The notes below the pieces were generated by a model. It had not been told where the DNA came from, did not search any database, and saw nothing but the letters and a program-made list of their open reading frames with translations. Shown piece after piece: positions 1,094 through 21,681 of a stretch of DNA of 21,681 nt; positions within the stretch are counted from its first letter, which is position 1, and every line of letters starts with the position of its first letter. Origin of the DNA: a virus; IMG/VR virus record IMGVR_UViG_3300008450_000533, positions 1 to 21,681 of that record. One strand, written 5' to 3'. The translations under genes were made by a program, and so were the position numbers.

Positions 1094-1101
1094 TATAAAT
1101 A
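1094..1101 (-). promoter_or_regulatory. Intergenic TATTTATA motif upstream of the 160-aa gene
   Basis: The coding strand reads TATATTTATAA here, 18 bases before the ATG at 1075. It is one of six copies in short gaps of this window. The plus strand reads TATAAATA, the T4 late-promoter consensus, but pointing away from the gene. Function unresolved: sense promoter of another type, antisense promoter, or an A/U-rich translation or processing element. Confidence 0.4.
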
Positions 1102-1105
1102 TACG

Positions 1106-1122
1106 AAAAAAAGGTACCCCTT
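1106..1122 (-). terminator. Weak possible terminator after the metallopeptidase gene
   Basis: On the coding strand the TAA stop of the 279-aa gene runs into AAGG-GGTA-CCTT followed by a run of T. A four-base-pair stem with a four-base loop before a T tract is the outline of an intrinsic terminator, but the stem is very short. This gap (45 bases) is the largest fully contained in the window. Low confidence. Confidence 0.2.
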
Positions 1123-1960
1123 ACAACGAATTTTCCCAGCTTCTAAAGTACATATTTCCTTTACTATAAGCTTCTAATTCTAATTCTTTTAAATATTCAT
1201 CCTCATTTATGTTGTGTCCATCAATCCCTTGAATTTTACCTTCAAGATTTTGTTTATGATGAATCATTTCATGAGCATATGAACGTAATATATCTTTTGG
1301 ATGCCTACCACAAGTATATAAAACAATACATTTAGTATTTGGATCATAATGTGCAGTACGTCCTAATATATCACTAGCATTTTCTTTATCATCCTCTATA
1401 AATGTAACATCAGGAAGTGGGTCTAAATCTAAACCGTTATCCATCATAAACATTGTAAGAGATACTAATTTATCTCTAAATTCTTTATTGTGTTCTAATC
1501 CTTTTTTAGTGATATTAGACACTACAATTTTATCTTTATGCTTATTAACTTTAAAATCAGATGGTACTACATTTTTGATATGATCCTTATAGTAATCAAC
1601 TCTATTAGAATCAGATGAAATGTTTAAATCTATATCCTGGTTTTGTAGTGGTTCAAAAAAATCATTAGAAGAAGGTTGTTGGGGGGTATTATCATGTTCA
1701 CATTTGTGGCACACATATAAGTCACTTCCTCCATCTTTAATTTTCCAAGTCCAACCACATTCATCACAAACAATAGAATCACCTTGAATTTCTTCATCAA
1801 CAAATGAAGTTATTTCGTCACCTTCATACACATATAATTCTTCAGTTGAAGGTTTAACTTTAGATAAATCTAGTTTTTCTAAAATTGGACGAATTAAATC
1901 AATAGACTTTTTAGAGTATTTTTCTTCAAAATATTGTATCACATCAGATTTTTGAGGCAT
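1121..1960 (-). CDS. Putative zinc metallopeptidase with N-terminal zinc ribbon (279 aa)
   Basis: The C-terminal part contains HEMIHHKQ at residues 230-237, a classic HExxH zinc-peptidase site (His230, Glu231, His234), followed by an ELELEAY stretch near 259-265 that could supply the third zinc ligand, as in gluzincin-type enzymes. A separate zinc ribbon lies near the N-terminus: Cys65 and Cys68 in CDECGW, then Cys84 and Cys87 in CHKCEHD. I associate this ribbon with marine phage proteins, where it appears as a mobile domain. The two zinc sites are joined by a polar linker (about residues 88-125) and an alpha/beta region. No signal peptide or membrane segment is seen, so a cytoplasmic or virion-borne enzyme is likely. 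Substrate unknown; candidates are phage protein maturation or a host target. The catalytic call is good, the role open. Confidence 0.8.
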   Translation of the reverse strand: MPQKSDVIQYFEEKYSKKSIDLIRPILEKLDLSKVKPSTEELYVYEGDEITSFVDEEIQGDSIVCDECGWTWKIKDGGSDLYVCHKCEHDNTPQQPSSNDFFEPLQNQDIDLNISSDSNRVDYYKDHIKNVVPSDFKVNKHKDKIVVSNITKKGLEHNKEFRDKLVSLTMFMMDNGLDLDPLPDVTFIEDDKENASDILGRTAHYDPNTKCIVLYTCGRHPKDILRSYAHEMIHHKQNLEGKIQGIDGHNINEDEYLKELELEAYSKGNMYFRSWENSL

Positions 1961-1974
1961 AGCATACGTTTAGC

Positions 1975-1982
1975 TATAAATA
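1975..1982 (-). promoter_or_regulatory. Intergenic TATTTATA motif upstream of the metallopeptidase gene
   Basis: The coding strand reads TAATATTTATAG. The TAA is the stop codon of the upstream PD-(D/E)XK nuclease gene, and the motif follows it directly, 14 bases before the ATG at 1960. Same orientation as the other gap copies. Confidence 0.4.
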
Positions 1983-2753
1983 TTAAATGTCTTCCCGTTT
2001 TGCTGTTGTTCTAAATGATTCAAATGAAGGAGATGATGTTGGATTTTCTAAATCAAATAACGTACGTACTGTTCTAAAAATATTTAAATTTTCTTCTTGT
2101 GTACGTTCTGATTCTACTACTTCCCAGCCCTTGCCTTGCATTTTATCTTTTTTAGGCCCACGCTTAGATGATTTTAGCCATAATATTCCTTGGCGTTGAG
2201 CATCCTTCCCATAACATTCTTTATAACACTGTGTATAAACTGCAGTTTGCAGTTCATATGTTGGTTGAATATGATTAGAAGTTTTAACATCTAATACCCA
2301 CAATTCATCATTAATTTCACAAATTAAATCACAAGTACCTGCTACTTTTAATTCATCTGAAAATAAGTGTACTTCAGTTTCAATAAGTTTAGGTTTATGG
2401 GTTTCCCAAAATTCTACAAAATGTAAAAACATCTGCCACACATCTGGGTTATGTTGTGGGTAGCCATTTTTGTCTAGGAATTTTAATTCAGCTCCGTTTA
2501 AGTATTCTTCCACCATTTCATGGACTTGAGTGCCTTCTTCAGCTGCTTTTTTAACAATATATTCTGAGGCGTAACCTACTTTTTTAAGCCAATCCTCAAA
2601 ATGTCTGCCTTTAGGATAGTATCCTAAGACATACGTTACAGAGGGATAATAATTACCGTTTCGCCTATAAAATCGTGAGTCAGGTAATGTAATTTGTTTA
2701 TGATCGTCAGATATTTCTAAAATACGATTATAAGAATGTTTAATTGTACTCAT
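1983..2753 (-). CDS. RecB/Cas4-like PD-(D/E)XK nuclease (256 aa)
   Basis: The motifs of the RecB/Cas4/AddB-type nuclease family are visible in order: GTQVHEM with His78 (motif I), a Glu-rich strand near 125-127, GTCDL with Asp142 (motif II), VLDVKTS with Asp155 and Lys157 (motif III), and a downstream QTAVY with Gln169 and Tyr173 (motif IV, QxxxY). This is the expected active site for a metal-dependent DNA exonuclease. The four cysteines of an iron-sulphur cluster, as in Cas4, are not visible. The ATG at 2753 overlaps the primase stop (ATGA), so the two are translationally coupled, pointing to replication, recombination or degradation of host DNA. The C-terminus (about 200-256) is basic and polar and may bind DNA. 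The family assignment is strong, the exact process inferred. Confidence 0.88.
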   Translation of the reverse strand: MSTIKHSYNRILEISDDHKQITLPDSRFYRRNGNYYPSVTYVLGYYPKGRHFEDWLKKVGYASEYIVKKAAEEGTQVHEMVEEYLNGAELKFLDKNGYPQHNPDVWQMFLHFVEFWETHKPKLIETEVHLFSDELKVAGTCDLICEINDELWVLDVKTSNHIQPTYELQTAVYTQCYKECYGKDAQRQGILWLKSSKRGPKKDKMQGKGWEVVESERTQEENLNIFRTVRTLFDLENPTSSPSFESFRTTAKREDI

Positions 2754-3682
2754 ACTAATTCTAATTTTTTCTCAAATAAGTTTGAGAAGGTTAATGGTTG
2801 AGTGGTTTGAATTAACTTAGTAAAGTTTTCAAAACCCATTTCACTTGGATCTTTATCTTGTAACTCTACTAAATATACTTCTTTACCCTCGTTTAATAAT
2901 TCTTCGCAGAATGATAAAGCTTGCTTAATTGCGTCTTTATCTAATGCTATATATATTTTTTGTACCTGTGAGGTAACTAGTTTTTTCTTTAATTTGTCCT
3001 GGATGTTTTTACCTAGCAGAGGTATTACATTGCGTTTAATAGCCATCATATCAAATGGGCCTTCACATAAAATGATAGGTACATTCCAATTTATAAAAAA
3101 TTCAAATGGAACAATGTTTCTTGATACATTTGGATTCTTATATTTTGATCTAGAAAATTCTTCAAATCCTCTAGAAGTAAAATAATTTAAATTACCTTTT
3201 TCATCATATGAAGGTATAACAATCATATTACTGTACGGGCCATGTTCACAATAACCAATTTGGTACTTAAGTATATCATACTTAGTGATACCACGGCGTT
3301 TTAGGTAAGCTAACGCGCGTCTACCAATGAGATTATTAGATGTCACATCAGTTAGCGGAATAAATTCTTCAGGCAATTTAACGCGCTCTAAATCGGCTTC
3401 TGTGTGTTCGGATTTAGAAGTACCTACTAAAGAATATAGTGATTGAAGTTTATCAGGTGTGACTTCTAAATGTTTAAATAAACGAGTTAATTTTCTACCT
3501 TTAGTGTTACATACCCAACAATGCCAAGGATTGTCACCTTTAGCATTTGTATCCATATTAACCTCAAGTTTAGGTTTATGGTGTTTACAAAATGGACAAT
3601 GATATGCTCTGTTGTTTTTAGAGGTATTTTTACCTGCCCCCAAGACAGAATCCACCAATGTTACTAACAGTTGATTTACCAT
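2750..3682 (-). CDS. DNA primase, gp61-like (CHC2 zinc finger and TOPRIM)
   Basis: This would synthesise RNA primers for lagging-strand replication together with a phage helicase. An N-terminal zinc-binding domain is seen with Cys29 and Cys32 (YHCPFC) and Cys55 and Cys58 (WHCWVC), the pattern of CHC2-type primases. A TOPRIM catalytic domain follows: ILCEGPFD with Glu207 and Asp211, then IALDKD with Asp248 and Asp250, the acidic metal ligands. The region between (about 110-190) contains IGRRALAYLKRRGI, the substrate-binding linker typical of DnaG/gp61. At 310 aa it is slightly shorter than T4 gp61 (342 aa) and has no helicase domain, so it should act with a separate helicase not in this window. 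It starts 23 bases after the GIY-YIG gene; that gap lacks the A/T motif. Confidence 0.92.
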   Translation of the reverse strand: MVNQLLVTLVDSVLGAGKNTSKNNRAYHCPFCKHHKPKLEVNMDTNAKGDNPWHCWVCNTKGRKLTRLFKHLEVTPDKLQSLYSLVGTSKSEHTEADLERVKLPEEFIPLTDVTSNNLIGRRALAYLKRRGITKYDILKYQIGYCEHGPYSNMIVIPSYDEKGNLNYFTSRGFEEFSRSKYKNPNVSRNIVPFEFFINWNVPIILCEGPFDMMAIKRNVIPLLGKNIQDKLKKKLVTSQVQKIYIALDKDAIKQALSFCEELLNEGKEVYLVELQDKDPSEMGFENFTKLIQTTQPLTFSNLFEKKLELV

Positions 3683-3705
3683 ATTGTGGAATATATGAAA
3701 GAAAC

Positions 3706-4161
3706 TTAGGAAACAAAATCTCTTTTAAAAAACTTACCTAATATGTTATCATTGTAGCTATCTACAAGCAAGACATTATATTGGCATTGGTAGTGTAATT
3801 CCCAATAAGTTAATTCTTTTTTGGTGTTGACTATTTTAATGATGTCTCTTTGGAATGCTAGGTTACCGTTGGATTTTATTTCGGCAAGTATTTCTTTATT
3901 AGAACCCCAATATGTAACCCAATCAGATTCTTTTTGTACTTTTTTAGTGGTTGCTTTTCTACCAGGACCAGATTGTTCAGCCAATTCAACTTTAGTTAAT
4001 TTTTTCTTTATATTGTGATAAAGACTTTTTTTACCGATATAAAACTTACCTGTTACTGTATTAGTAATTCTATAAATGAATCCAAAACTATTTTCTGGGA
4101 AGTCTTCTAAAGTAATGAATTCTTTAATTTGAGTGTTTTCATATCGAAACCAGTTATTCAT
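3706..4161 (-). CDS. GIY-YIG family nuclease-like protein (151 aa)
   Basis: The GIY-YIG signature is present as FIYRI (residues 28-32) and KFYIGKK (39-45), where the paired tyrosines Tyr30 and Tyr41 and Gly43 fit the catalytic beta hairpin. Further conserved-looking elements are SDWVTYWGSN near 79-88 and TYWELHYQ with Glu121, the likely metal-binding glutamate. A basic segment (about 50-78) suggests nucleic-acid contact. It is a single short domain with no separate DNA-binding module, unlike many homing endonucleases. It lies exactly at the change from structural genes to primase, two bases after the 284-aa structural gene. It could be a resident repair or host-DNA-degrading nuclease or a free-standing mobile endonuclease; the sequence alone does not decide. 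Confidence 0.8.
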   Translation of the reverse strand: MNNWFRYENTQIKEFITLEDFPENSFGFIYRITNTVTGKFYIGKKSLYHNIKKKLTKVELAEQSGPGRKATTKKVQKESDWVTYWGSNKEILAEIKSNGNLAFQRDIIKIVNTKKELTYWELHYQCQYNVLLVDSYNDNILGKFFKRDFVS

Positions 4162-4163
4162 AT

Positions 4164-5018
4164 TTAAAAATTTAGGTTTACTTGGAATAATGCTTCGTTA
4201 TGGAAATTTTTATTGTATGGTCTAGGAAGTTTAGCAGTTGCTAATAACTCATTGTTATCATTGTACAAGCCAATTGTAGTAATGTATGCTTGTGGGTTTT
4301 CATACCACTCAGGATGTATTATAATACCTGAACTACCTGAAATAAAGCTTGGATTAGATGGGTAATTATATTCTAGGTTTCGGGTTCTAATAAAGACTGA
4401 ATTGAGAGGAGTAGAATCTTCGTTTTTAAGAATAAAGGCTGAAGATGCAAGAGTAGACAAGTTTTGAGAGCTTATAATAATTCCTATATCTGGGAATACA
4501 TAACCATATTCTCCTGTACCTGTTCCGTAGGTGAATGCTCCTGTTCCTCCTGTTACAGTTCCAAGAACTAATTTATATGCTCTTCCACAATTGAATAATT
4601 GAGGAGATTCCATATTACTATTATCAGTATAATTTCCAATTTTTAAACTACCAGGTAATAAAGCACTTTTATATTTGTCTCTAGCAATTGATATAACATT
4701 GAAAGTAGGTTGAGATGATCCGTTCCAAGTAAATTCAGCATTGTTATCCCCAAAAACTATATTGCGTAATTTACCATATACAGCTCTTGGAGTACCAGAG
4801 CCATTTTTATTAGCAGTTGTTACACTATACTGTACATTAGATCTGTTACCTATAAAAATATTATTAATGCTTGGGTATATAACTTCAGTGCCTAGTCCTG
4901 GGGTAGTAGATGTAGGGATAGAGTTAATAAAGTTACCACTAGCATCTCTCCAACATGAAGTTGAAGTAGAAATAACTTCTAAGGTAAAATCTAAGGGATC
5001 TATTCTAGTTAAAGCCAT
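4164..5018 (-). CDS. Tandem structural paralogue C (284 aa), probable virion protein
   Basis: Predicted beta-rich virion protein, very poor in cysteine and rich in Ser, Thr, Asn and Gly. It is clearly paralogous to the 334-aa protein two genes upstream: both begin with an xRxDPxDF motif and share a YGxxRN...GD-N-A-F block, a PGSLxI block, a CGRAxxLV block, a PDIGxI block and NPSFISGS. The final 42 residues, starting QAYITTIGLYNDNNELLATA, align without gaps to the ends of both neighbouring paralogues. It is the last structural gene before the nuclease and primase genes. Proteins with this ending recur, as I recall, in marine T4-like phages near the baseplate genes. Tail-fibre attachment or baseplate periphery are plausible roles, unproven. 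No enzymatic motif seen. Confidence 0.82.
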   Translation of the reverse strand: MALTRIDPLDFTLEVISTSTSCWRDASGNFINSIPTSTTPGLGTEVIYPSINNIFIGNRSNVQYSVTTANKNGSGTPRAVYGKLRNIVFGDNNAEFTWNGSSQPTFNVISIARDKYKSALLPGSLKIGNYTDNSNMESPQLFNCGRAYKLVLGTVTGGTGAFTYGTGTGEYGYVFPDIGIIISSQNLSTLASSAFILKNEDSTPLNSVFIRTRNLEYNYPSNPSFISGSSGIIIHPEWYENPQAYITTIGLYNDNNELLATAKLPRPYNKNFHNEALFQVNLNF

Positions 5019-5022
5019 AATT

Positions 5023-6003
5023 TTATCTGTCTAAATTTACAACTATTGTCATATCTGTAGTTCTGCTAGTTGGTATAGGTTGTGATAATTTAGCTACTGC
5101 TAATAACTGTTGATCATCATCATATAATCCAACAGATGTTATATAAGGAGAAAATGAAGAACCAGTTACAAAATCCCATGTTTTTCCACTAGTATCTACA
5201 GTGGTACTATTCATTGGGCTGGTGTATCCGGTGGTTGAGAATATGGATGGGTTTAATGAATAATTAAATTCACTTTCTCTAAGGGTGCATTTATATTGGG
5301 TTTCATAAACAACTTTAGAACTTTGAAAATTTAAGGTTGTGTTAATACCCCACCAACCAAATATAGATTCATCAAATGCTAAAAAAGGAAGAACCGCTAT
5401 TCCGTGAGCATAATTGATAATACCTACTATTTGTCCGGCGTATGTTCCATTAGCAACTACTAATCCTCCTTCTCCATTATCTTTTACAGTAATTGTTCCT
5501 AAAACATCATCTGTAATACCAGCACATGAAAAACTAGTAGGGTTTATGTAATCACCATATAATGTACTGGGGATGGATATTACATATAAACTTGTTGAGT
5601 CAGCATTGGGGGCAGATCCAGAGCGAAAAGTTCGAGGTTGATATAAAGTAGTATCTAAAAAATTATCAAATCTACTATGTACATTTAGGGTAGCTCCTCC
5701 TTCAATAATATTACCATTCATATCAGTTTGAATGGTTTCCCCTTCAGGATTAGGAACTTGATTTGAATAATATAATTGTTTTATAACATTGTATACCTGT
5801 GTAAAATCTACATCTTGGTAATCTGCAACAATAAATCCACCATAATCTATGTTTTGCTCATCATCATAAGGGATGTTTGCTCCAGCATATTTTTTTATAC
5901 CAACCGCTTCCCATTGAGTGTCCCCAGTAAAAGTAAAACTTTTATGTGTAACTAAAGGTGTTATTATAACATCTTGTGAAGTAAGAGATTTGAAAGCACC
6001 CAT
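5023..6003 (-). CDS. Tandem structural paralogue B (326 aa), probable virion protein
   Basis: Beta-rich protein starting MGAFKSLTSQDVIITPL, a start style I recall from structural proteins of marine T4-like phages. The body (about residues 30-230) differs from paralogues A and C, but the last 90 or so residues contain FNYSLNPSIFS and the shared 42-residue C-terminal module beginning SPYITSVGLYDDDQQLLAVA. So it looks like a different N-terminal body on a common C-terminal module. The shared end may be the docking or trimerisation part and the variable body the exposed part; this is inference. It is separated from its neighbours by 4 bases on each side and has no Shine-Dalgarno sequence, so it is probably translated from the same message. 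Confidence 0.82.
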   Translation of the reverse strand: MGAFKSLTSQDVIITPLVTHKSFTFTGDTQWEAVGIKKYAGANIPYDDEQNIDYGGFIVADYQDVDFTQVYNVIKQLYYSNQVPNPEGETIQTDMNGNIIEGGATLNVHSRFDNFLDTTLYQPRTFRSGSAPNADSTSLYVISIPSTLYGDYINPTSFSCAGITDDVLGTITVKDNGEGGLVVANGTYAGQIVGIINYAHGIAVLPFLAFDESIFGWWGINTTLNFQSSKVVYETQYKCTLRESEFNYSLNPSIFSTTGYTSPMNSTTVDTSGKTWDFVTGSSFSPYITSVGLYDDDQQLLAVAKLSQPIPTSRTTDMTIVVNLDR

Positions 6004-6007
6004 TCAT

Positions 6008-7012
6008 TTAGAAATCTAATTTAACACGTATTAAAGCTTCTTTGGTAAAATCTTTTTTAAGTGGTTTTGATAATTTTGCTACAGCTAATAATTCATTATT
6101 GTCATTATACATTCCTACAGATGTGATATATGTTTGAGGATTTTGGATAAATGCATCATAAAGTATAGCTCCAGTACTACCTGAAATAAAGCTTGGGTTT
6201 TCAGAGTAATTAAACTCAGCGTTTCTAGCTCTTACAAATACAAAATCAGATGTTACTGTTTCTTGGCTGAGTATTCCAAAATTGCAGGTTCCAGTATTAC
6301 TTAAACATTCATTAGCAAAATCAAATGCATTGTCAGTATCAGTGTTTGGAGTTCGAGGTGTTGTAAAACCAGTATATTCTTGTATAGCAGCCGGATTAAA
6401 TAGTATAACTCCTATATCAGGAAGAAGATAACCAAATGACCCTGAGGTGCCTCCTCGAGCTGCATTAGTAACTCCACTACCATTACTACCTGATACTAGT
6501 TCAAATGCTCTACCACAGTCTAGATAAGTAACGGTAGTTACATCTCGGCTATTATCCGTTAATGCAAGGGCTGCATTGTTTTCAAGTCGTATATTTAAAC
6601 TTCCAGGAAATATAGTTTGTTTATAACGAGTACGAGCTAAAGATACAACATAAAAGTTAGGTTGGATTACTCCTCCAAAATTAAAAGTAGCATTCTCATC
6701 ACCATAAATTAAATTTCTAAATTGACCATAAATGGTTCGAGAAGGTGAATTACTAGTAACCGAGGCATAATATGGTACTGTTCCGTATCCATCAATATCT
6801 CCATATGCTACATTAAATTGAGGAGTAGCTGCTGTAGAAGAAGCAGGGTCAGATTGATATGCACTTACATAGTAATCTCCACTAGGGCCTGATCTCTGGG
6901 TTGTAGAGAAGTATATTGTGCTAAGAGAAGCACTATTAGTAGACCAAGCAGGTCCCACAACTGAGTCAGCACTGACTATAAAATCTTCGGGGTCTAGTCT
7001 TTTAAATGACAT
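6008..7012 (-). CDS. Tandem structural paralogue A (334 aa), probable virion protein
   Basis: Beta-rich virion-type protein paralogous to the 284-aa protein C. Shared blocks in order: LDPEDF near the start, YGQFRNLIYGDENATF, PGSLNI, CGRAFELVSGS, LLPDIGVIL, FNYSENPSFISGS, then the common C-terminal 42 residues from 293. Compared with C it carries about 50 extra residues, partly a Ser/Thr/Tyr-rich insert near 20-70 and partly a segment with two cysteines (ECLSNTGTCN) about two thirds along, absent from C. It opens the three-gene tandem set, 18 bases after the 219-aa gene; that gap has no ATATTTAT motif. No enzymatic motif, signal peptide or membrane segment is visible. Role likely in the baseplate or fibre network. 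Confidence 0.82.
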   Translation of the reverse strand: MSFKRLDPEDFIVSADSVVGPAWSTNSASLSTIYFSTTQRSGPSGDYYVSAYQSDPASSTAATPQFNVAYGDIDGYGTVPYYASVTSNSPSRTIYGQFRNLIYGDENATFNFGGVIQPNFYVVSLARTRYKQTIFPGSLNIRLENNAALALTDNSRDVTTVTYLDCGRAFELVSGSNGSGVTNAARGGTSGSFGYLLPDIGVILFNPAAIQEYTGFTTPRTPNTDTDNAFDFANECLSNTGTCNFGILSQETVTSDFVFVRARNAEFNYSENPSFISGSTGAILYDAFIQNPQTYITSVGMYNDNNELLAVAKLSKPLKKDFTKEALIRVKLDF

Positions 7013-7030
7013 TTATTGTTAATTTTTTAA

Positions 7031-7690
7031 TTAAGAATTTTTGTTAATTTGAACCGGAACTGTAATTCTGGCTCCACTGTCTCTACCTACTACGGTTAAA
7101 GTGGTTGATATTTGGTTTACTCCTGTTGGGAATAAAATATTAATTGTAGTAGCGGCTAGATTAATGGTAGTACCAACTACGGTTTTAGACACGTTAGTTC
7201 CAAGAGTAGTTGTTGAATTTAACGCATTAGCTTGAGTTGTATTGATACCTACACCATTAAACGAACTCATTAATCTTACATCGGATATAGTTGCGCTATA
7301 ACCAGAAGATTCACGAGTTTGAGTTCCACCCAAATAATTTAATGTTTGAGGACTAATAGAAAGTGTAGCTCCTTGGTTCAAAGTAATAGTAGTATAACCA
7401 AGATCTAAAATAGGTAATTTAGAAGTACCTCTAGGAAGAGTGGTAAGCAAATATTTCATTGCTTGTGTCTCATCAGGAAATGCTTCTAATAAAGGCATAC
7501 CATCAATTGCTTGACCATAAAATGCAGAACCTTCAGGATGATCAGGGTTATACATTGTATAATCAATTTCATCATCTGCTAAGGCAAATTGTGTAATTCT
7601 AAAAGAACCATCATTTTTGGCTAACAATTCTCTACCTTTTCTTGTTAAGATAGCGTCTACTGTAACTATTGAATTATTAAGAAATCCCAT
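7031..7690 (-). CDS. Conserved marine-phage structural protein (219 aa)
   Basis: The first 90 residues are of a type I recognise from T4-like marine phages: a start of the form GFLNNSIVTVDAILTRKGRE, then a LLAKNDGSFRITQFALADDE block, a NPDHPEGSAFYG block and a PLLEAFPDETQAMKYLL block. These proteins are normally listed only as structural or hypothetical. The C-terminal half (about 110-219) is a repetitive Thr/Asn/Ser-rich beta region ending in an Ig-like strand pattern (TTLTVVGRDSGARITVPV). It follows the giant 1602-aa tail gene after 28 bases, and that gap holds one ATATTTAT motif. A baseplate or fibre-connecting role fits the position. Confident as a gene and as structural, not as to exact role. 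Confidence 0.83.
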   Translation of the reverse strand: MGFLNNSIVTVDAILTRKGRELLAKNDGSFRITQFALADDEIDYTMYNPDHPEGSAFYGQAIDGMPLLEAFPDETQAMKYLLTTLPRGTSKLPILDLGYTTITLNQGATLSISPQTLNYLGGTQTRESSGYSATISDVRLMSSFNGVGINTTQANALNSTTTLGTNVSKTVVGTTINLAATTINILFPTGVNQISTTLTVVGRDSGARITVPVQINKNS

Positions 7691-7710
7691 TTTTTATATT
7701 ATTTTTTTAT

Positions 7711-7718
7711 TATAAATA
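7711..7718 (-). promoter_or_regulatory. Intergenic TATTTATA motif upstream of the 219-aa gene
   Basis: On the coding strand the TAA stop of the 1602-aa gene is followed directly by TATTTATAATAA, 20 bases before the ATG at 7690. The leader between motif and start is almost pure A/T and contains no Shine-Dalgarno sequence. Confidence 0.4.
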
Positions 7719-12527: not shown

Positions 12528-12889
12528 TATGAATTAATGTTGGGTTGATTGGTGCTTGGTGAGGCTTGTAAAGAAATTAATTGTTGGTTGGCGGCAAGTA
12601 GATCTTGTCTTAGGGTAGTTATTTCGTCTAATAAAAGTTGAATTTCTTCATTAGTTTGTTCAAAACCAATATAGTCACCACTAGTTTTAACTAGATATTC
12701 ATGTGAATTAGTATTCCCATTAGTAGGAATATCATAAAACAAAGTATTATATAACTCAAAAAACTCTCCTACAGTTATAGTATCTGCTAAAGGGGGTGGC
12801 GGTACTGATACTTGTGAAAAAGAAGTATCAATAGTGTTTTCATAGTTTTGTTTAGTAAAAACTGTTTTATTTAACGGATAATTAGCCAT
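12527..12889 (-). CDS. Small baseplate-associated protein with C-terminal coiled coil (120 aa)
   Basis: A 120-residue protein with a proline-rich patch (PPPPLAD near 31-37), a middle ITVGEFFELYNTLFYDIP helix followed by NTNSHEYL, and a C-terminal heptad-like helix (about 80-112, EEIQLLLDEITTLRQDLL) that should form a coiled coil. I recall similar small proteins between wedge genes of marine T4-like phages, but know no tested function. Its ATG overlaps the stop of the DNRLRE-like gene by 8 bases and its stop overlaps the start of the 1602-aa gene, so all three should be translated in a linked way. A chaperone or connector for the giant protein is a reasonable guess. Confidence 0.8.
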   Translation of the reverse strand: MANYPLNKTVFTKQNYENTIDTSFSQVSVPPPPLADTITVGEFFELYNTLFYDIPTNGNTNSHEYLVKTSGDYIGFEQTNEEIQLLLDEITTLRQDLLAANQQLISLQASPSTNQPNINS

Positions 12890-14003
12890 TAACTACTTTA
12901 AAATAATAATTATTATCAAAAATTATTGTTGAACCATTTATAATACTTTTAATAAGTATCTTATAATACCTTTCAGGTTCTAAGCCATTCATGTAAAGTG
13001 TAAAATAACTGCCTTGTTCATCAACACTTAATTGAGTATATTGGTCATCGAAATCTACAACAACTTCATTAGTATCCAAGTCTTTTATTGAAAAATATGA
13101 AGAAGTAGGTAAATAATAATTTTGTGTGTAATATGAAGAAGTTTGAAAAGTTCTTGGTGGGTAAGTTGGTCTACTATTAACCCTAAATATATTTACACTT
13201 TCAGGATAAAAAACACCGATATTGTCATCAACAGATACCGTAGCAGTTGTTGTAGACAATTCATTAATGGTAGAAGAACCAGTATTAAACGTATAATCTC
13301 TCCATCTAAATTCTAGTTGTGGAGGGTATATAGTATGAGTATCTGAGGAAAAGAATTGAATTTTAGATTGATAATCTTCATTATTAATGAATTCAATAGC
13401 TTGTTTAGCTATAATTCCATTATTATCTATAGTACCACTATACCATGCTTTAACCATATTAGTAACATTAGTATCAATGTCACCTGAGTCTTTATAAGTA
13501 AAGCTTTGAGTTGAATAGATAGGTAAAGTAGTAGAATTTGATGAACTTATATACCAAGTACCTCCTCCAATCTCATTCCCGTATGATGCTGTTACGAAAG
13601 CTGGGAAGCCGCTAGTGGCCCAAGCGTTACTCCCAGAGTATGATCTCCAAGTCCAACTAACTCCATTTTCAATTTCAGGACTATAATTGTATTTTCCGGT
13701 ACCCATATTCCATGTAGTAGAGACAGGGTAAAATTCTAATGTTGTAGTAGTTGATAAACCTTCTAAATTAGCAGCAAATCCTCTAAAATTAGCTTGCCAT
13801 TGAGATCCACTAATTTTATTATTAATAAGATCCGTGATTTCATTAGAATCAAATTGAATTAAAAATCTACTAGCTTGGGGGTAAGAAGATAAATTATTTA
13901 CTAAAGTAGTAGTTTCTATTACTTCATCTAGCCCTGTATTTTTGTTAGGGTAAAGTGAATAAATAGTAGCATCTTTAACAGGAAATAGTTTATAAACAGC
14001 CAT
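12882..14003 (-). CDS. DNRLRE-like beta-sandwich structural protein (373 aa)
   Basis: The N-terminal 230 residues resemble DNRLRE-type beta-sandwich domains: DATIYSLYPNKNTG at 11-24, SRFLIQFD at 45-52, an LEFYPVSTTWNMGT strand near 89-102, SWTWRSYSG near 116-124, then a DIDTNVTNMVKAWYSG segment that matches the usual V-T--V--W pattern of this fold. The C-terminal 140 residues form a second beta domain with SYFSIKDLDTNEVVVDFDD and a final NNYYFKVVNG strand. Such domains occur in extracellular and virion proteins and may bind surface polymers; here a baseplate or fibre-linked role follows from the position after gp6. No catalytic residues seen. It overlaps the next gene by 8 bases. Confidence 0.75.
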   Translation of the reverse strand: MAVYKLFPVKDATIYSLYPNKNTGLDEVIETTTLVNNLSSYPQASRFLIQFDSNEITDLINNKISGSQWQANFRGFAANLEGLSTTTTLEFYPVSTTWNMGTGKYNYSPEIENGVSWTWRSYSGSNAWATSGFPAFVTASYGNEIGGGTWYISSSNSTTLPIYSTQSFTYKDSGDIDTNVTNMVKAWYSGTIDNNGIIAKQAIEFINNEDYQSKIQFFSSDTHTIYPPQLEFRWRDYTFNTGSSTINELSTTTATVSVDDNIGVFYPESVNIFRVNSRPTYPPRTFQTSSYYTQNYYLPTSSYFSIKDLDTNEVVVDFDDQYTQLSVDEQGSYFTLYMNGLEPERYYKILIKSIINGSTIIFDNNYYFKVVNG

Positions 14004-14010
14004 TTTTTAT

Positions 14011-14018
14011 TATAAATA
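14011..14018 (-). promoter_or_regulatory. Intergenic TATTTATA motif upstream of the DNRLRE-like gene
   Basis: Coding strand reads TTATATTTATAATAAAA, only 7 bases before the ATG at 14003 and 6 bases after the TAA stop of the gp6-like gene. The short distance leaves no room for a normal leader if this were a -10 element for the gene. Confidence 0.4.
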
Positions 14019-14024
14019 TAAGAA

Positions 14025-15884: not shown

Positions 15885-16351
15885 TATAATGTAATTTGAA
15901 GATTTTCAGGAGCATTTCCTAAATATGAATAATTTATAGATAATTGTATAGCATTTTCATCATATATTGGAGTTAAAGATACTCCATTTATCCTAACTGC
16001 AGGGAAGTTTGATGAAAGATCATTACTTATTTTAATTTCTAAGCCTTTTAGATACTCATCAGTTATATTTTCAAATAATTGATTTTGTAGATTAGAACCA
16101 AATCCAGGGTTAAGAACTCGTTCATCTTTATTAGTTAATAAAAAATTAATCATGTTTGATTTAACCTGATCAATTGTTGTATATGTTGAGGTAAATACTG
16201 AGGTTCCTGTGGTTAATGATGGGTTAAATCCAGAACCCGTATATAATGGGGTGCCAGTATTAGTAGCACCCCCATTAAAAGGAATAGATATCCCAACCGC
16301 AACTCGCTGATTGAGATCTAAAGGATTTTGGTTTGCTATTCTGATTGCCAT
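15884..16351 (-). CDS. Baseplate wedge protein, gp25-like (155 aa)
   Basis: GPW/gp25-family protein, part of the wedge core and the site where the tail sheath starts. The family signature is visible as NKDERVLNPGFG at residues 74-85, followed by a LFENITDEYLKGLEIKI helix and a FPAVRINGVSL strand. The 155-aa length is a little above T4 gp25 (132 aa); the extra part is a Gly/Thr-rich N-terminal segment (about 26-58). The start overlaps the stop of the 116-aa gene (TAATG), and its own stop overlaps the gp6-like start. Gene order gp25 to gp6 is as in T4 and marine T4-like phages. Confidence 0.93.
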   Translation of the reverse strand: MAIRIANQNPLDLNQRVAVGISIPFNGGATNTGTPLYTGSGFNPSLTTGTSVFTSTYTTIDQVKSNMINFLLTNKDERVLNPGFGSNLQNQLFENITDEYLKGLEIKISNDLSSNFPAVRINGVSLTPIYDENAIQLSINYSYLGNAPENLQITL

Positions 16352-16701
16352 TATTTAGTCATTAATCCCATTATTTGATCTAAACTTACTTCACCACCAG
16401 GCAAACTTGAACCTTCACCTACTGTACTAACAGGAGGTGGGGTATAAGTGGGTTGGGCATGTGATGAGTTAGCTGTTATAGTAGCATCAAATTCACCACC
16501 AATCATACTACGTAAATTACGTTTAATATCTGGGTTGATGTTAGTATGTGTGGGTTTTGTGGTGTAAGGGATAGGATTAGCGTTTTCATTAACTACAGTT
16601 TTAGGAGAACGTACTGCTTCAAGTAAAATATCTTTAATTTCTTCTTGAATTGCTTCACGAACTGCTTCTTTAATTAACTTTTTTAATATATCTGTTTTCA
16701 T
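16351..16701 (-). CDS. Small protein with amphipathic N-terminal helix (116 aa)
   Basis: Function unknown. Residues 1-32 form a strongly charged amphipathic helix (IKEAVREAIQEEIKDILLEA), followed by a Pro/Thr/Asn-rich disordered middle (about 35-100) and a short C-terminal helix SLDQIMGLMTK. Two helices joined by a flexible linker suggest an adaptor peptide tying two baseplate parts, an inference from layout only. It directly precedes and overlaps gp25 (TAATG). It starts just 3 bases after a TATTTATA motif and has no Shine-Dalgarno sequence. Confidence 0.8.
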   Translation of the reverse strand: MKTDILKKLIKEAVREAIQEEIKDILLEAVRSPKTVVNENANPIPYTTKPTHTNINPDIKRNLRSMIGGEFDATITANSSHAQPTYTPPPVSTVGEGSSLPGGEVSLDQIMGLMTK

Positions 16702-16704
16702 AGT

Positions 16705-16712
16705 TATAAATA
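16705..16712 (-). promoter_or_regulatory. Intergenic TATTTATA motif abutting the 116-aa gene start
   Basis: Coding strand reads AAATATTTATAACTATG: the motif ends 3 bases before the ATG and begins 5 bases after the preceding TAA. If it were a -10 box for this gene, transcription would start inside the coding region, so a translational, processing or antisense role must be considered. Confidence 0.4.
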
Positions 16713-16717
16713 TTTGA

Positions 16718-18508
16718 TTATTCAGCTGTTAATTGAGGATTTGAATCTATAATAAACTTTAATTGGTCCAAAAGTACTTGTGGGTCTGATGCAAATGAGG
16801 AATCGGTTTTTAGTACAGGTACTCCTTGTCTATTAACTGCTTGGGCAAAACGTCTCGGGTAAGAAGTATTAGAAGTAGTATCTAATTTTAATTCTAAAGT
16901 AAATCCTTTATAAATATTATTTTGTTGTTGGGTAGCTTGTATTACATCACTGTTGCTTAACCCAGTTGATTCATTAATAAAACTATCTAATTCAGTATTA
17001 ATTTCTTCAAAAGGTATAGCAATCTTAACATCCCCAGCATCAACAGGTAAAGGTTCATTAGGTGGAGTATTATAATTAGGATCTTCAGCACATTGAAGCA
17101 TAAGTGCATCTAAAGATCTTAGTATAACTAAAATTACTCCAAGTAATGTTCCTATAGTAGCTAAAGCTACAGTTGCAACATTAAGTACAACATTAAACTT
17201 TTTAGCAGTCTCTTCAAGTTTAGCCAAACCTACAGGTACTCCAGGAGGAGCAGGGAGGGGTACAAATGTTGCTGCTAAAATACCAATACGTATGGCTGTA
17301 ACTGCGGTATTAAGTCCTAGGGTAATTTTAGATAAAGTTGTTACTGTTTTATAAATAGCATTGATTTGTCTTACTAATTTATTACGTTTTTCTATAAGTC
17401 GTAACAATTCAGCTCTATTAGGACAAGAAGCTAAATCTTTTATCGTGTTTAAGGGTAACTTAGCTAAAACAGCTTGTAGTGCTGCTGCTCCAAAAGGTAG
17501 TAATAATGCTATTAAAAAAGGAATAATTTTTCTTCTAATTTTATCCTTTTGAGAATTAAAAATATTAACTAACCTTGCTTGAGGTGAAAGTTGTGATTTT
17601 AATATTCTATCTGAAGTTTTATTATTCTCAGTTTTTAATTCATCATTAAGTTGAGAATTAGCAGTAATAGTAGGATCAGGCTCCTCAGACATAGTCTTAC
17701 GAGGCACTTCTGTTACTGTATTAGAAGCGGGTGGGTTAACTATAGGTATTCTACTTACTTGAGCATCTGTAGGGAAATACTGTGATGCTTGGGCTTCGGG
17801 GGTAAGTTGTAAGATTACTCTTTTAGAATAATCTTCGTCTGGTATGGTGGTAAAGTCTGCAGGTGAAAAGCGTGCATAAGATTCAAAGGGTTGATTGTAA
17901 GGGGGTTGGGTTAAATATGTTTCCAACTCATAATAACCAATTTTTACTGTAGGAGATGATTCTGCAGTAGTAGTGGGAGAATTTTGTTGGGTAAATACTC
18001 TCCCAGACTCAAGTACTGTAGATCCGTAATAACTAGCTAGTAAATCTTTGTAGGTACCTAAAACTGTATTGGCTAATATGTCAAAAGTAGCTGTAAATGA
18101 AGGGACACCTTTGATGGGGGTACTGCTTATGTTAGGGTCAGATGGGGTTAAAACTGCTGTTTTTTGTGGGCCAGATATTTCAAATGTAATTACTGCTCCA
18201 TCGGGGGCTGTGGTTCCATCTTCTTTTTTTCTATAAACAACATATGTAGGTGTTGTTGGGGCTTGGGTTGGAGTATTGCCCTCTATAAGATTATCTTCTG
18301 TTAAATAAAGAGCAGTAACAATATATTCAAGAGGATCATCTGTATTGATTAATATATTACCATTTATGTCAGAATGTCCAACTAATGTAAGTACTCCATT
18401 ATAATCATCAGTAGAAGTACTAAAAACTGTAGCTCCAGCTAGAGGGCCTTCACCATACCTATCAGGAGCATTAAGTTGAAAATATACATTTAGTATTTTA
18501 TTAGGCAT
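16718..18508 (-). CDS. Baseplate-module protein with three hydrophobic segments (596 aa)
   Basis: Not recognised by name. Residues 1-70 look like a carboxypeptidase-regulatory or Ig-like beta domain (PLAGATVFS, then GHSDINGNILI). Residues 100-290 are beta-rich and proline-rich. A charged stretch (about 285-327) leads into three hydrophobic segments: about 328-350 (IIPFLIALLLPFGAAALQAV), 402-420 and 440-468 (ATIGTLLGVILVILRSL). A charged helix (about 366-395, RLIEKRNKLVRQINAIY) separates the first two. The C-terminal 110 residues are soluble. Membrane-type segments are unusual in a protein encoded between hub and wedge genes; a role in contacting or breaching the host inner membrane, or in the tail-tube lumen, is possible. 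No signal peptide at the start. The assignment to the virion rests on context. Confidence 0.8.
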   Translation of the reverse strand: MPNKILNVYFQLNAPDRYGEGPLAGATVFSTSTDDYNGVLTLVGHSDINGNILINTDDPLEYIVTALYLTEDNLIEGNTPTQAPTTPTYVVYRKKEDGTTAPDGAVITFEISGPQKTAVLTPSDPNISSTPIKGVPSFTATFDILANTVLGTYKDLLASYYGSTVLESGRVFTQQNSPTTTAESSPTVKIGYYELETYLTQPPYNQPFESYARFSPADFTTIPDEDYSKRVILQLTPEAQASQYFPTDAQVSRIPIVNPPASNTVTEVPRKTMSEEPDPTITANSQLNDELKTENNKTSDRILKSQLSPQARLVNIFNSQKDKIRRKIIPFLIALLLPFGAAALQAVLAKLPLNTIKDLASCPNRAELLRLIEKRNKLVRQINAIYKTVTTLSKITLGLNTAVTAIRIGILAATFVPLPAPPGVPVGLAKLEETAKKFNVVLNVATVALATIGTLLGVILVILRSLDALMLQCAEDPNYNTPPNEPLPVDAGDVKIAIPFEEINTELDSFINESTGLSNSDVIQATQQQNNIYKGFTLELKLDTTSNTSYPRRFAQAVNRQGVPVLKTDSSFASDPQVLLDQLKFIIDSNPQLTAE

Positions 18509-18517
18509 AATCTAAAA

Positions 18518-20005
18518 TTAATTAGGACATAATTTATATTTAAATACTGAGGGTTCTATTAAATTTCCTGCTTGGTAATGTATATAAAATGTTCCAAAAT
18601 CAGGGATATCAGAGATATCATAAATCCTAGGACCTCGGACAATTTTATAGCTGTAGTATTTGTTTGTTGTTTTTCCATCATCACCAGCAAATGGGAAACG
18701 GTAGAGGTTAGGGTCGTCAAACATTATGTTTATATTCTCTTTAGCATTTTTTGGGTCGACAGTATATACTTTACGATTCTGGTCATAACGGGCTTTATTC
18801 CAATTATAAATTTCCCTACCTATAAGACCAGGTTTAGTAGGATCTGTAGTTCCATCGTTTTGTACAAACCAATCTGCTAATAGACTATTATATACATCTT
18901 TACCAGCAACTAATGTTCTATAAGACTTATCCCCTATGGTTCCATCAGTTTGACCAGGAAATGGGGGATTGGGGAATCGACCTAGTTTTAAATATGCCAT
19001 AAATCCCCAAGAAAGAAGACTTCCACCAACTTCATCTTGGTGAAAAACACTGTCAAATGTTGCACTTTTAAATCCCTCTGTAATGCTAAATCCAAATCTA
19101 TCAGCAAAATTTAAAGCATATAATTCAATCTTTTTTGTTCCAGGGGGTTTGGTAAACCCAAGTGAACCATATTGAGAGCCATCAAAAGGTATTTCTGCGC
19201 ATGGTGGGCCAGTAAGTAATGCTTGTACTTGTACATACTGGTAGGGTAGGTAAGGTTCAATTGCTTTACTATATTCTGGGGTGCCTCTTTTTGGGAAAGG
19301 ATTAGGTTTTGGATACTCCTTGGGATCTGGTTCTCCAACTAGTATGGCTTTTTTAACGTCGGGAGCAGGGGTACCCTTATCTGTAAAGTATTTTTTTATA
19401 TATTTTATTAAATTATCTGCTCTTCTGATGGATAAAACTTCTCGGTTTAAACTTTTTTCATAGTCAGGGTTAGCAGTACCATTAGATGAAGAAGGCTCTA
19501 AATCAGTATTACTAAGTGTAGACTCAGAAGCTACAATTTTGATCTGGGCGTAATTTTCTGTTTGGCCTGTTTTTTTCTCTTTTTCATAGAAATTAACAAA
19601 CTCTAATGCACTTGCTAAATTATAATCTAAAAGACTTTGATCATATGAACTTAGTGATGTAATCAAGTACTTTCCAGCATCAAATCCCCCAGCAAAATTA
19701 AGAGTACCTCCCCTGTACTTATCAACAGCCGGAGGAGGAAATTGGAATGTATCAGAAATTTTAGGATTTTTAATGGTAAAAGAACTATAACCCTTTTTTA
19801 CAAATGTTATTGTTACTTGTGAAGAATCAATCCCATTAGGTAGACTAGCATTCCATGTACCATCTTTTGCAGTTTTAGTGGGTTGTAAAATACTTTGACC
19901 AGAAGAATCAGTATACCTGATTTTAACGTCTACTCCTTCTAAAGGTGCTCCTGTGCTTGAGCGTACTATTCCATTGTATTTATTACTTCCAGGATCATTA
20001 GCCAT
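18518..20005 (-). CDS. Baseplate-module protein: CarboxypepD_reg-like and possible OmpA-like domains (495 aa)
   Basis: Residues 9-78 match a carboxypeptidase-regulatory-like (Ig-fold) domain: YNGIVRSSTGAPLEGVDVKI, then DGTWNASLP and FVKKGYSSFTI. Residues about 112-255 show the outline of an OmpA C-terminal fold: a KIVASES strand at 146-152, LSIRRADNLIKYIKKYF at 191-207 (the RRA helix), a G-x-P-D-P turn near 214-218 and a final QYVQVQALL strand at 246-254. The catalogue Asp/Arg residues that bind peptidoglycan are not all obvious, so this is a divergent match. The C-terminal 240 residues, with aromatic and glycine-rich stretches such as FHQDEVGGSLLSWGFMAYL, are unrecognised. Peptidoglycan contact by the phage hub would make sense here since the hub gene upstream lacks a visible lysozyme domain. 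Role inferred. Confidence 0.78.
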   Translation of the reverse strand: MANDPGSNKYNGIVRSSTGAPLEGVDVKIRYTDSSGQSILQPTKTAKDGTWNASLPNGIDSSQVTITFVKKGYSSFTIKNPKISDTFQFPPPAVDKYRGGTLNFAGGFDAGKYLITSLSSYDQSLLDYNLASALEFVNFYEKEKKTGQTENYAQIKIVASESTLSNTDLEPSSSNGTANPDYEKSLNREVLSIRRADNLIKYIKKYFTDKGTPAPDVKKAILVGEPDPKEYPKPNPFPKRGTPEYSKAIEPYLPYQYVQVQALLTGPPCAEIPFDGSQYGSLGFTKPPGTKKIELYALNFADRFGFSITEGFKSATFDSVFHQDEVGGSLLSWGFMAYLKLGRFPNPPFPGQTDGTIGDKSYRTLVAGKDVYNSLLADWFVQNDGTTDPTKPGLIGREIYNWNKARYDQNRKVYTVDPKNAKENINIMFDDPNLYRFPFAGDDGKTTNKYYSYKIVRGPRIYDISDIPDFGTFYIHYQAGNLIEPSVFKYKLCPN

Positions 20006-20007
20006 AA

Positions 20008-21291
20008 TTAAGAAATTTTAACATTTTTAGATAACAATTTTTTATCTTGAACAAAATTAGCAATTGATATTGATATATCCTCTGCATCACTAGAAACAGC
20101 ATTTAATGATGCTATAGGTGCTCCAAATGAATCAGCAGCATTTTTAAAAGCTATATTCAAAGTATCCATAAAAGTAGATAATTCTTTTAATAAAAGATTT
20201 AAATTATCTCCTAATACTGGTGGTTGGATATTAACACCTTCTGTTCCACTTATAATACCTAAACGTACTAGAGGAGATGCTAAAACAATTTGAGTACCAC
20301 CATCTATATTAACAGTAGTGTCTGAGGATAAATGTATAGATTTTTCAGAACTTAATATAATGCTGTCTTTAGTAGCATTAAATACTAATCGTCCTGAGTT
20401 TAGAATTATTTGGTTTTTTGAGTATGCATTAACATCATCAGGAATATCTGTAGGTGATAGTTTATCATATGAATCAACTAAATTACTTGCTAAAGTAAAT
20501 CTACTGATTTGTTGAGTAGAAGTTAAGTAAATAGATGACATGTCATTATTTACATTCTCAGTGGTTGGGACCCAAGGGTCTGTAGGTAAGGGGCCTTGTC
20601 CGTTTCTGATAATAGTAATAGGATCTCCATCCTTACCTGTACCATTAGACCAATTATTTTTAAGGGCAGCAGTATTGACTGTAGAGCCTAGTCTAATGGA
20701 GTTTCCAAATCTACCTTCATATATAGTATCCCCCTCATATGGTAAAAGGGGGTGAATGTTATTTATATTTGATTCTTTAAATGTCCTCCCTAAATTTATT
20801 TCAGTAGATTGATCCCCTATCCTTCGCACAGCACCAGCTTCTATTTGTTGATAGTCTCTTCGTTGTTCAGGAGGTAAAGTATTATTTTCAGGAATAGCAT
20901 TATGAATTTGGCTATTCCAAATATTAATAGGAGGTAGATAATATGGGGATACTGAGGTAGTATTAGTAGTAATATTAGTATTGGGGAGATATATTATAGG
21001 TACTAATTCATTAAGTAAAGGATAATATTTAAGATTAGGAAAAAGAGGATAAGCTGGTATCCAATTGTTAGGAGAGGAGTTATTAAGGGTAGGGTTTTTA
21101 GTAGAATCTATAAAAATAACACCTATTCCATTCCATTCTCCGTATTTTTTAAAATCTCTATGAGTATTATCTAAAATAATATCTTTTACTCTATACGCAA
21201 GTATAGTAGAAGTAGTAGACATACCCGAAGTTGAAGCAGCAGCTGCATATTGGGTGTTATTTTGTTTGTTACCATACGAAACTGTAGGCAT
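20008..21291 (-). CDS. Baseplate hub/spike protein, gp5-like (427 aa)
   Basis: Resembles the gp5-type hub proteins of marine T4-like phages. Residues 30-105 look like the OB-fold domain (YRVKDIIL, GIGVIFID, ELVPIIYLPN). Residues 191-260 carry EGRFGNSIRLGSTV, KDGDPITIIRNGQG and SSIYLTSTQ, a combination I associate with these proteins. Residues 293-345 form a repetitive beta pattern (IILNSGRLVFNATKDSIILS, then SIHLSSDTTVNIDGG) as in the gp5/VgrG needle helix. The C-terminal 70 residues are helical. No T4-lysozyme-like insert is seen between the OB fold and the helix, so the cell-wall-cutting activity of T4 gp5 must be absent or elsewhere. The start is supported by a strong Shine-Dalgarno sequence, the only one in the window, and the ATG overlaps the preceding stop (TAATG). 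Confidence 0.85.
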   Translation of the reverse strand: MPTVSYGNKQNNTQYAAAASTSGMSTTSTILAYRVKDIILDNTHRDFKKYGEWNGIGVIFIDSTKNPTLNNSSPNNWIPAYPLFPNLKYYPLLNELVPIIYLPNTNITTNTTSVSPYYLPPINIWNSQIHNAIPENNTLPPEQRRDYQQIEAGAVRRIGDQSTEINLGRTFKESNINNIHPLLPYEGDTIYEGRFGNSIRLGSTVNTAALKNNWSNGTGKDGDPITIIRNGQGPLPTDPWVPTTENVNNDMSSIYLTSTQQISRFTLASNLVDSYDKLSPTDIPDDVNAYSKNQIILNSGRLVFNATKDSIILSSEKSIHLSSDTTVNIDGGTQIVLASPLVRLGIISGTEGVNIQPPVLGDNLNLLLKELSTFMDTLNIAFKNAADSFGAPIASLNAVSSDAEDISISIANFVQDKKLLSKNVKIS

Positions 21292-21632
21292 TAATTACCT
21301 CCTTCTTTAAATTTATCTATTTCAGCTAATAATTGAGCTTTTTCTTCTTCAGAAATACCAAAACCGCCTTCGGCGGTTCCGTTATTACTCATAATGCGTT
21401 GAATAATAGTAGCCATTTTAATTAATTGTTCATCATTTTTAACACTTATTTCTAAGTATTCTTTAATTAAAGGAACAATTAAAGTAGCATCTCCTATTTC
21501 GTTTACTAATGGTTTAAGTTCTGATATAAGAGCAGAGATTTGTTTATCTTTTTTCTTTTGATTATTGTATATCTCCTCTAATATGTCAGAAAATTTTTTA
21601 CCACCAAATACAACATTGTCTAAACCATTCAT
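21291..21632 (-). CDS. Small helical protein upstream of the hub gene (113 aa)
   Basis: Function unknown. Mostly helical and charged, with a likely coiled coil around 14-45 (DILEEIYNNQKKKDKQISAL) and a second helical stretch near 60-85, then a glycine-rich turn (AEGGFG) and a C-terminal acidic helix. Cysteine-free and without a membrane segment. It directly precedes and overlaps the gp5-like gene and its final codons contain the GGAGG that serves as the ribosome site of that gene, so the two are linked in translation. Small helical proteins in this place could be hub chaperones or tail-assembly adaptors; inference only. Confidence 0.8.
   Translation of the reverse strand: MNGLDNVVFGGKKFSDILEEIYNNQKKKDKQISALISELKPLVNEIGDATLIVPLIKEYLEISVKNDEQLIKMATIIQRIMSNNGTAEGGFGISEEEKAQLLAEIDKFKEGGN
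21298..21303 (-). promoter_or_regulatory. Strong Shine-Dalgarno site for the gp5-like gene
   Basis: Coding strand reads AAGGAGGTAATTAATG, with AGGAGG 6 bases before the ATG at 21291. It lies inside the last codons of the 113-aa gene. Other starts in the window lack such a site, so this one is exceptional and fixes the start of the hub gene. Confidence 0.7.
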
Positions 21633-21646
21633 GATACGTGTTTAAT

Positions 21647-21654
21647 AATAAATA
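21647..21654 (-). promoter_or_regulatory. Intergenic ATATTTAT motif upstream of the 113-aa gene
   Basis: Coding strand reads TTATATTTATTATTA, one base different from the other five copies (TATTTATT instead of TATTTATA), 14 bases before the ATG at 21632. It marks the start of the baseplate hub block. Confidence 0.35.
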
Positions 21655-21657
21655 TAA

Positions 21658-21681
21658 TTATGGGAAATTTGTATACCCATT
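21658..21681 (-). CDS. Possible C-terminal end of an upstream gene
   Basis: One minus-strand frame reads N-G-Y-T-N-F-P followed by TAA at 21660-21658. The stop lies 3 bases before an ATATTTAT motif, the same stop-then-motif layout as at the other gaps, which suggests a real gene end. Another frame running through to TAA near 21645 is equally open, so the assignment is tentative. In T4-like order a wedge protein such as gp53 often precedes the hub gene, but seven residues cannot show that. Confidence 0.35.
   Translation of the reverse strand, partial: NGYTNFP

Follow-up and report, generated by a model that had tools for sequence, protein, structure and literature searches.

The window analyzed here is the whole of a virus record of 21,681 bases, which carries about 20 genes, all of them on the minus strand. 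For both its gp6-like baseplate wedge protein (48% identity) and its primase (46% identity) the nearest named phage is Flavobacterium phage immuto, followed in both cases by Microcystis phage Mel-JY01 and the uncultured phage LR756508. This places the window's phage among the relatives of Immutovirus, a T4-related group with a primase similar to that of SPO1-like phages. From these relatives, and from the early promoter class described below, we infer a Bacteroidetes host. A reading of the sequence without database searches (the sequence-only reading) had described eight intergenic gaps of at least 16 bases, six of them holding a short motif in a single orientation, and all are present as described: the six boxes lie on the coding strand, five as TATTTATA and one as ATATTTAT, and the two gaps said to be devoid of the box are so. 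The features are as follows.

1094-1101, minus strand: putative late-promoter box TATTTATA, ending 18 bases before the ATG of gene 593-1075
1975-1982, minus strand: putative late-promoter box TATTTATA, ending 14 bases before the ATG of gene 1121-1960
7711-7718, minus strand: putative late-promoter box TATTTATA, ending 20 bases before the ATG of gene 7031-7690 (219 aa)
14011-14018, minus strand: putative late-promoter box TATTTATA, ending 7 bases before the ATG of gene 12882-14003
16705-16712, minus strand: putative late-promoter box TATTTATA, ending 3 bases before the conserved ATG of gene 16351-16701 (116 aa)
21647-21654, minus strand: putative late-promoter box TATTTATT, ending 14 bases before the ATG of gene 21291-21632, with ATATTTAT at 21648-21655
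3683-3705, minus strand: gap of 23 bases without a box
7013-7030, minus strand: gap of 18 bases without a box
21658-21681, minus strand: last codons (NGYTNFP-stop) of a putative gp55-like sigma gene, the remainder of which lies beyond the window edge

The sites reported earlier are in the right places and their distances to the ATG do span 3 to 20 bases, but the coordinates given for ATATTTAT are off by one base because they belong to TATTTATA. The box at 1094-1101 is preceded by a T-run with a weak GGTACC-type hairpin, and that at 1975-1982 directly follows the exonuclease stop codon. Across the window as a whole, the two strings occur at chance level (9 copies of TATTTATA versus 7.5 expected and 7 of ATATTTAT versus 7.2), as they would if AT-rich gaps simply acquired them by chance, and the signal thus lies entirely in their placement. 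The gaps hold 5 copies of TATTTATA and 6 of ATATTTAT, the latter being their commonest 8-mer, compared with shuffle means of 0.20 and 0.18 and a maximum in either case of 2 in 2000 shuffles. A further two sense copies fall within coding sequence (16909 and 17350), and two more are on the opposite strand (15848 and 20760).

Relatives of the gp6-like gene occur in IMG/VR in at least about 600 places, and 80 loci around this gene were taken, 64 of which remained after removal of redundancy. The window being a record of 21.7 kb only, whole-genome tests were made on relatives, namely immuto and the IMG/VR contigs G001 (163 kb) and G002 (161 kb). The motif claim withstood a count by strand in gaps and genes of the 64 relatives, where the densities are unequal: the 21.9 kb of same-strand gaps contain 162 sense copies of TATTTATA (7.4 per kb; 162 of 320 gaps) and 17 antisense copies (0.78 per kb), and the 758 kb of coding sequence contain 91 sense (0.12 per kb) and 139 antisense copies. 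Over all gaps of these relatives the two commonest 8-mers are ATATTTAT and TATTTATA. The motif is tied to particular gene junctions. Specifically, TATTTATA is present in 16 of 17 distinct orthologous gaps upstream of 7031-7690, and there also in immuto and Mel-JY01, in 25 of 31 upstream of 12882-14003, in 33 of 39 upstream of 16351-16701 and in 24 of 30 distinct gaps upstream of 21291-21632; it is found in none of the 20 distinct orthologous gaps upstream of 6008-7012, which is a gap of similar length (7013-7030 in the window). At the junction between the sigma gene and the 113-aa gene (upstream of 21291-21632), TATTTAT occurs in all 47 distinct orthologous gaps (shuffle mean 2.8, maximum 8) while the rest of the gap is variable, with the box 3 to 21 bases from the ATG; the single distance of 0 at this junction is a second copy of the box in one locus (L116). 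Elsewhere in the relatives' loci, neighboring genes mostly abut or overlap. The shuffles, strand bias, conservation and junction specificity rule out chance or AT composition as the source of the boxes, and we regard the probability of that explanation as negligible.

In the whole genomes the motif represents the late one of two putative promoter classes. The early class, in immuto, G001 and G002, takes the form of arrays of small genes with TTTGGC...TTATATTTAG, which is close to the Bacteroidetes -33/-7 consensus, the sigma-A promoter of F. johnsoniae having TTTG at -33 and TAHHTTTG at -7 (PMC6847099). This class is found in gaps predominantly on the sense strand (30 sense versus 1 antisense in G001, 24 versus 3 in G002, and 29 versus 9 in immuto). 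In G001 and G002, TATTTATA precedes the terminase, portal, PhoH, sheath, tube, hub, tape measure and baseplate genes, and the late virion genes have ATATTTATAnnnAA without a -33 element, usually downstream of any terminator in the gap. Gaps with only the late class and gaps with only the early class differ by region (Fisher p = 0.0013 in G001 and 0.00026 in G002). The structural regions in this test were drawn by the analyst on the basis of gene homologies; they leave out 14 and 15 gaps of the late class, respectively, or about half of the late-class sites. The base before the late box is A (A or C in immuto), conserved A's follow 4-5 bases after it, and the segment directly downstream is AT-rich; the position profile upstream of the box is flat, with no -33 or -35 element.

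The order of boxes and terminators bears on the idea that the box is an mRNA processing site, cut by an endonuclease to separate late cistrons. Such a site would suit an A/U-rich, intergenic element lying mostly 0-9 bases from the upstream stop codon. In box-bearing gaps, however, 14 intrinsic terminators lie upstream of the box and only 2 downstream, both in Mel-JY01, and beyond a terminator there should be no read-through RNA to cut. Moreover, the box is missing at many junctions of the same operon, and cutting would need neither the conserved downstream A's nor the partition against the early class, so we consider processing very unlikely.

The motif had been described as standing in reverse orientation to the T4 late promoter, which is misleading. 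The box looks reversed because TATTTATA and the T4 box TATAAATA are reverse complements of each other; aligned in one direction, the two strings are identical except at positions 4 and 5. The boxes are most simply taken as late boxes of the T4 orientation in which the central AA is replaced by TT, T's being found there in the host -7 element too. The alternative is that the antisense strand carries T4-type late promoters (TATAAATA), which make antisense RNA, and the exact match of the reverse complement to TATAAATA is what speaks for it. A reversed T4 promoter was rejected given the strand bias, the order of terminators, the downstream conservation and the link to late genes, all of which point in the sense direction. 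Specifically, the conserved A's lie 4-5 bases beyond the box on the sense-downstream side and the terminators are upstream in the sense direction; with nearly all genes of these genomes on one strand, every box would yield antisense RNA. In addition, the roles of the two strings are reversed in the gaps of 45 kb of T4 (4 sense copies of TATAAATA, no sense copy of TATTTATA), and sense TATAAATA is not enriched in the gaps of the window's relatives. We therefore hold antisense promoters to be extremely unlikely. As for two further control phages, bias is absent from Flavobacterium phage FCL-2 (2 and 2) and only weak in the crAss-like Cellulophaga phage phi14:2 (4 and 0 in 4.8 kb).

The T4 late box lies at -13 to -6 (PMC1524935), and T4 late promoters have no -35 element and AT-rich DNA downstream (PMC2988020). 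The boxes described here resemble the late promoters of T4, KVP40, 44RR and S-PM2 in being a single 8-base TATA-like box at -10 without -35 conservation, in the AT-rich DNA downstream and in their place before late virion genes. They differ in the two central changes from TATAAATA to TATTTATA, with the direction the same, and in lying as close as 3 bases to the ATG. A T4 relative with both a diverged late box and a diverged gp55 has a precedent in Aeh1, whose late promoters read CTAAATA (PMC1524935), although the change in Aeh1 is at the 5' end of the box and here it is central. By definition, then, the boxes are not T4 late promoters, as they lack the defining TATAAATA box, but they would work like them.

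In T4, gp55 recognizes the late promoter, which the sliding clamp gp45 activates together with gp33. A comparison with the phage's own sigma-factor gene, if it had one, had been suggested, and a gp55-like sigma gene was found adjoining the window. The coding strand of the window opens with NGYTNFP-stop, the exact C-terminus of a sigma-like protein in one relative (L097), the gene being unannotated, and the complete gene is present in a close relative (L102, 194-910) whose gap sequence is identical to that of the window. A search for Sigma70 region 2 gave one protein of 237-239 aa in each of G001 and G002, and directly downstream of the sigma gene comes the homologue of gene 21291-21632, the last one in the window. 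Homologues are encoded by immuto (46%), LR756508 (46%) and Mel-JY01 (40%), as hypothetical proteins where annotated. The box is present in both immuto and Mel-JY01 (17 sense and 4 antisense in the latter, the recorded host of which is the cyanobacterium Microcystis), while the 50-kb structural region of LR756508 has no clear box, although that phage encodes the sigma.

The case for a sigma factor rests on the agreement of scores, those of single sequences being weak. Matches to Sigma70_r2 (PF04542) were obtained with 48 of 50 family members (best E 5.7e-5, below the curated cut-off) and to the PHROG "late sigma transcription factor" with 28 of 50 (best E 8.5e-4). Profile-profile alignment by hhalign against gp55, represented by 14 proteins from T4-like, Aeromonas, cyano-, pelagi- and Stenotrophomonas phages, gave a probability of 93% (E 3e-7, 156 columns) with a match that starts at the gp55-specific N-terminal segment 1 (YVdNkeL/YFTQETE); a larger but less diverse alignment gave 44% (E 2e-4). 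The top Foldseek matches of the AlphaFold2 model (pLDDT 75, pTM 0.42) in the PDB are mostly sigma factors, at E above 0.05, with 93-94 residues of domain 2 superimposed on SigW and WhiG at 3.2-3.6 Å; a PDB sequence search with the sigma profile gave no matches. Like the gp55 of T4, KVP40, 44RR and S-PM2, the predicted protein would be a small phage sigma factor with homology in segment 1 and region 2. It exceeds those proteins in length by about 50 aa, has an additional helical domain at its C-terminus and shows no obvious clamp tail of the DFLYE type; members of the family end in FYLENGYTxF, and the aligned cyano-, pelagi- and Stenotrophomonas gp55s are also without the tail. The 113-aa neighbor was considered as an equivalent of gp33 and gave a poor model (pLDDT 47) and only chance-level matches in a PDB profile search. 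Searches of the open literature turned up no account of either this box or this sigma.

The host sigma-A could instead read the box as a -7 element (TAHHTTTG-like) without a -33, perhaps with a phage activator, leaving the phage sigma-like protein otherwise employed. In this context, TATATTTA resembles TAHHTTT(G) and is a string common to the early class of the same genomes; the late box shares an A..TTT core with the Bacteroidetes sigma-A promoter, to whose type the early class belongs. Yet the position profiles of the late box show neither TTTG at -33 nor TAHHTTTG at -7, which the early class resembles: the invariant G of the host -7 is replaced by A, the leading T is not conserved, there is no -33 and the box extends to TATA. 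The motif is also lacking in the Flavobacterium phage FCL-2, it is kept in Mel-JY01, recorded on a cyanobacterium, and the early and late classes segregate by gene region. We consider reading by host sigma-A unlikely, and recognition by the gp55-like sigma highly likely if the boxes are promoters.

The spacing to the ATG bears on both translation and the start of transcription. In G001 and G002 together, 7 of 68 sites lie exactly 3 bases before the ATG and none at 0-2, and immuto has one box 1 base before. The start codon of the 116-aa gene (16351-16701) is conserved in its homologues, with the box mostly 3-6 bases before it. Bacteroidetes have no Shine-Dalgarno sites and use upstream A's (PMC6847099), and with many boxes near the ATG an A/U element that recruits ribosomes might be envisaged. 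However, the distance to the ATG ranges from 3 to 21 bases within one orthologous gap, genes without a gap manage without a box, and the known determinants are A at -3 and -6 rather than the box octamer. In Mel-JY01, furthermore, most boxes stand 31-39 bases ahead of the ATG, and a Shine-Dalgarno-like GGAG lies in between; the box itself is therefore no ribosome-binding element. This explanation is as improbable as antisense promoters. Of the four options in the sequence-only reading, a new promoter class survives; an antisense promoter, a processing site and a ribosome-recruiting element fit worse, and promoter function on the sense strand is very probable.

It had been objected that a promoter at 16705 would start transcription inside the gene. 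This holds for the T4 geometry (-13 to -6), which was rejected here as starts would then fall within the ATG wherever the box is 3-4 bases from it, but not if transcription starts at the conserved A, the fourth base after the box, which at 16705 coincides with the first base of the ATG. We favor a start at the conserved A's 4-5 bases downstream, in which case mRNAs from the short-spacing sites would begin with AUG. Leaderless starts of this kind are conceivable, at slightly less than even odds. Alternatively, the box would serve genes further downstream and the first gene would be read from upstream transcripts.

We propose that the boxes are probably switches for late (virion) genes that are read by the phage-encoded gp55-like sigma. 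The late promoter core would consist of (A)TATTTATA and an AT-rich stretch after it in which A's are conserved 4-5 bases downstream, with no -33/-35 element. The sigma, a divergent homologue of gp55 encoded by the gene that terminates at the window's right edge, would bind the core of the host RNA polymerase and recognize this single -10-type box, with transcription starting about 4-6 bases downstream on the sense strand and driving the baseplate, tail, head and other late genes. The early genes would use the separate host sigma-A-type class, with a -33 (TTTGGC) and a -7 (TTATATTTAG), and early 5' ends in immuto would fall after the TATATTTAG sites. The analysis itself establishes the motif with its strand, its conservation and its tie to certain junctions, as well as the two classes and the homology of the sigma; in this mechanism we infer the pairing of sigma and box, the timing of gene expression and the position of the transcription start. 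More tentatively, at somewhat less than even odds, the whole may be a T4-type late module adapted to a Bacteroidetes-type RNA polymerase, combining a gp55 homologue that has an additional C-terminal domain and lacks a canonical clamp tail, a box intermediate between T4 TATAAATA and the host -7 element, and starts so near the box that the mRNAs of several late genes are leaderless.

The DNA-reading segment of gp55 is still termed speculative (PMC2988020), and the phages described here would offer a natural case of paired divergence of a late box and gp55 that bears on promoter recognition by this protein. They would also provide a testable promoter code for a large T4-related phage group, in which early-type and late-type promoters can be separated from sequence alone, and name a likely function for proteins now annotated as hypothetical, immuto26A_153 and its homologue in Mel-JY01.

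In relatives of the window's phage, the gene for the gp55-like sigma factor is followed by one encoding a highly conserved helical protein of 109-116 aa, which is similar in size to the T4 co-activator gp33. Its structure model is of poor quality.

Window 21291-21632, the highly conserved helical protein (109-116 aa), with homologues in loci L099-L176
Window 4164-7012, three adjacent tail genes
Window 1121-1960, protein with a metalloprotease-like motif and an apparent zinc-ribbon
Window 3706-4161, GIY-YIG-like protein
PP395634.1 (L013-L016), Microcystis phage Mel-JY01, recorded host the cyanobacterium Microcystis elabens

The three tail genes are apparently paralogues, as judged from the like C-termini (ITSVGLYDDNNELLAVAKL-like) of their products. 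The 1121-1960 protein carries the metalloprotease-like AHEMIHH close to its C-terminus and the apparent zinc-ribbon (CDECG...CHKC), and its sole family match, DUF6647, is sub-threshold. For the 3706-4161 protein, the best PHROG family and the homologue in Flavobacterium phage immuto are both labeled 'NAD synthetase'; homing endonuclease families are also matched, and the Mel-JY01 counterpart is annotated as GIY-YIG. The 'NAD synthetase' label looks like a propagated error.

Short genes of unknown function lie in arrays in two relative contigs (G001 and G002) and immuto. Upstream of every gene in these arrays is an early-type promoter of almost unvarying sequence (TTTGGC...TTATATTTAGnnATAATTAAAA), and a GGCCTTCGGGCC-type hairpin often adjoins or contains the -33 element.

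G001, ~134-143 kb (L185, L186), array
G002, ~95-109 kb, reversed orientation (L188-L196), array
immuto, 67-76 kb (L010), array

Mel-JY01 has the sigma factor and late box in common with the window's phage lineage, but differs in having Shine-Dalgarno-like leaders and fewer -33/-7 early sites.
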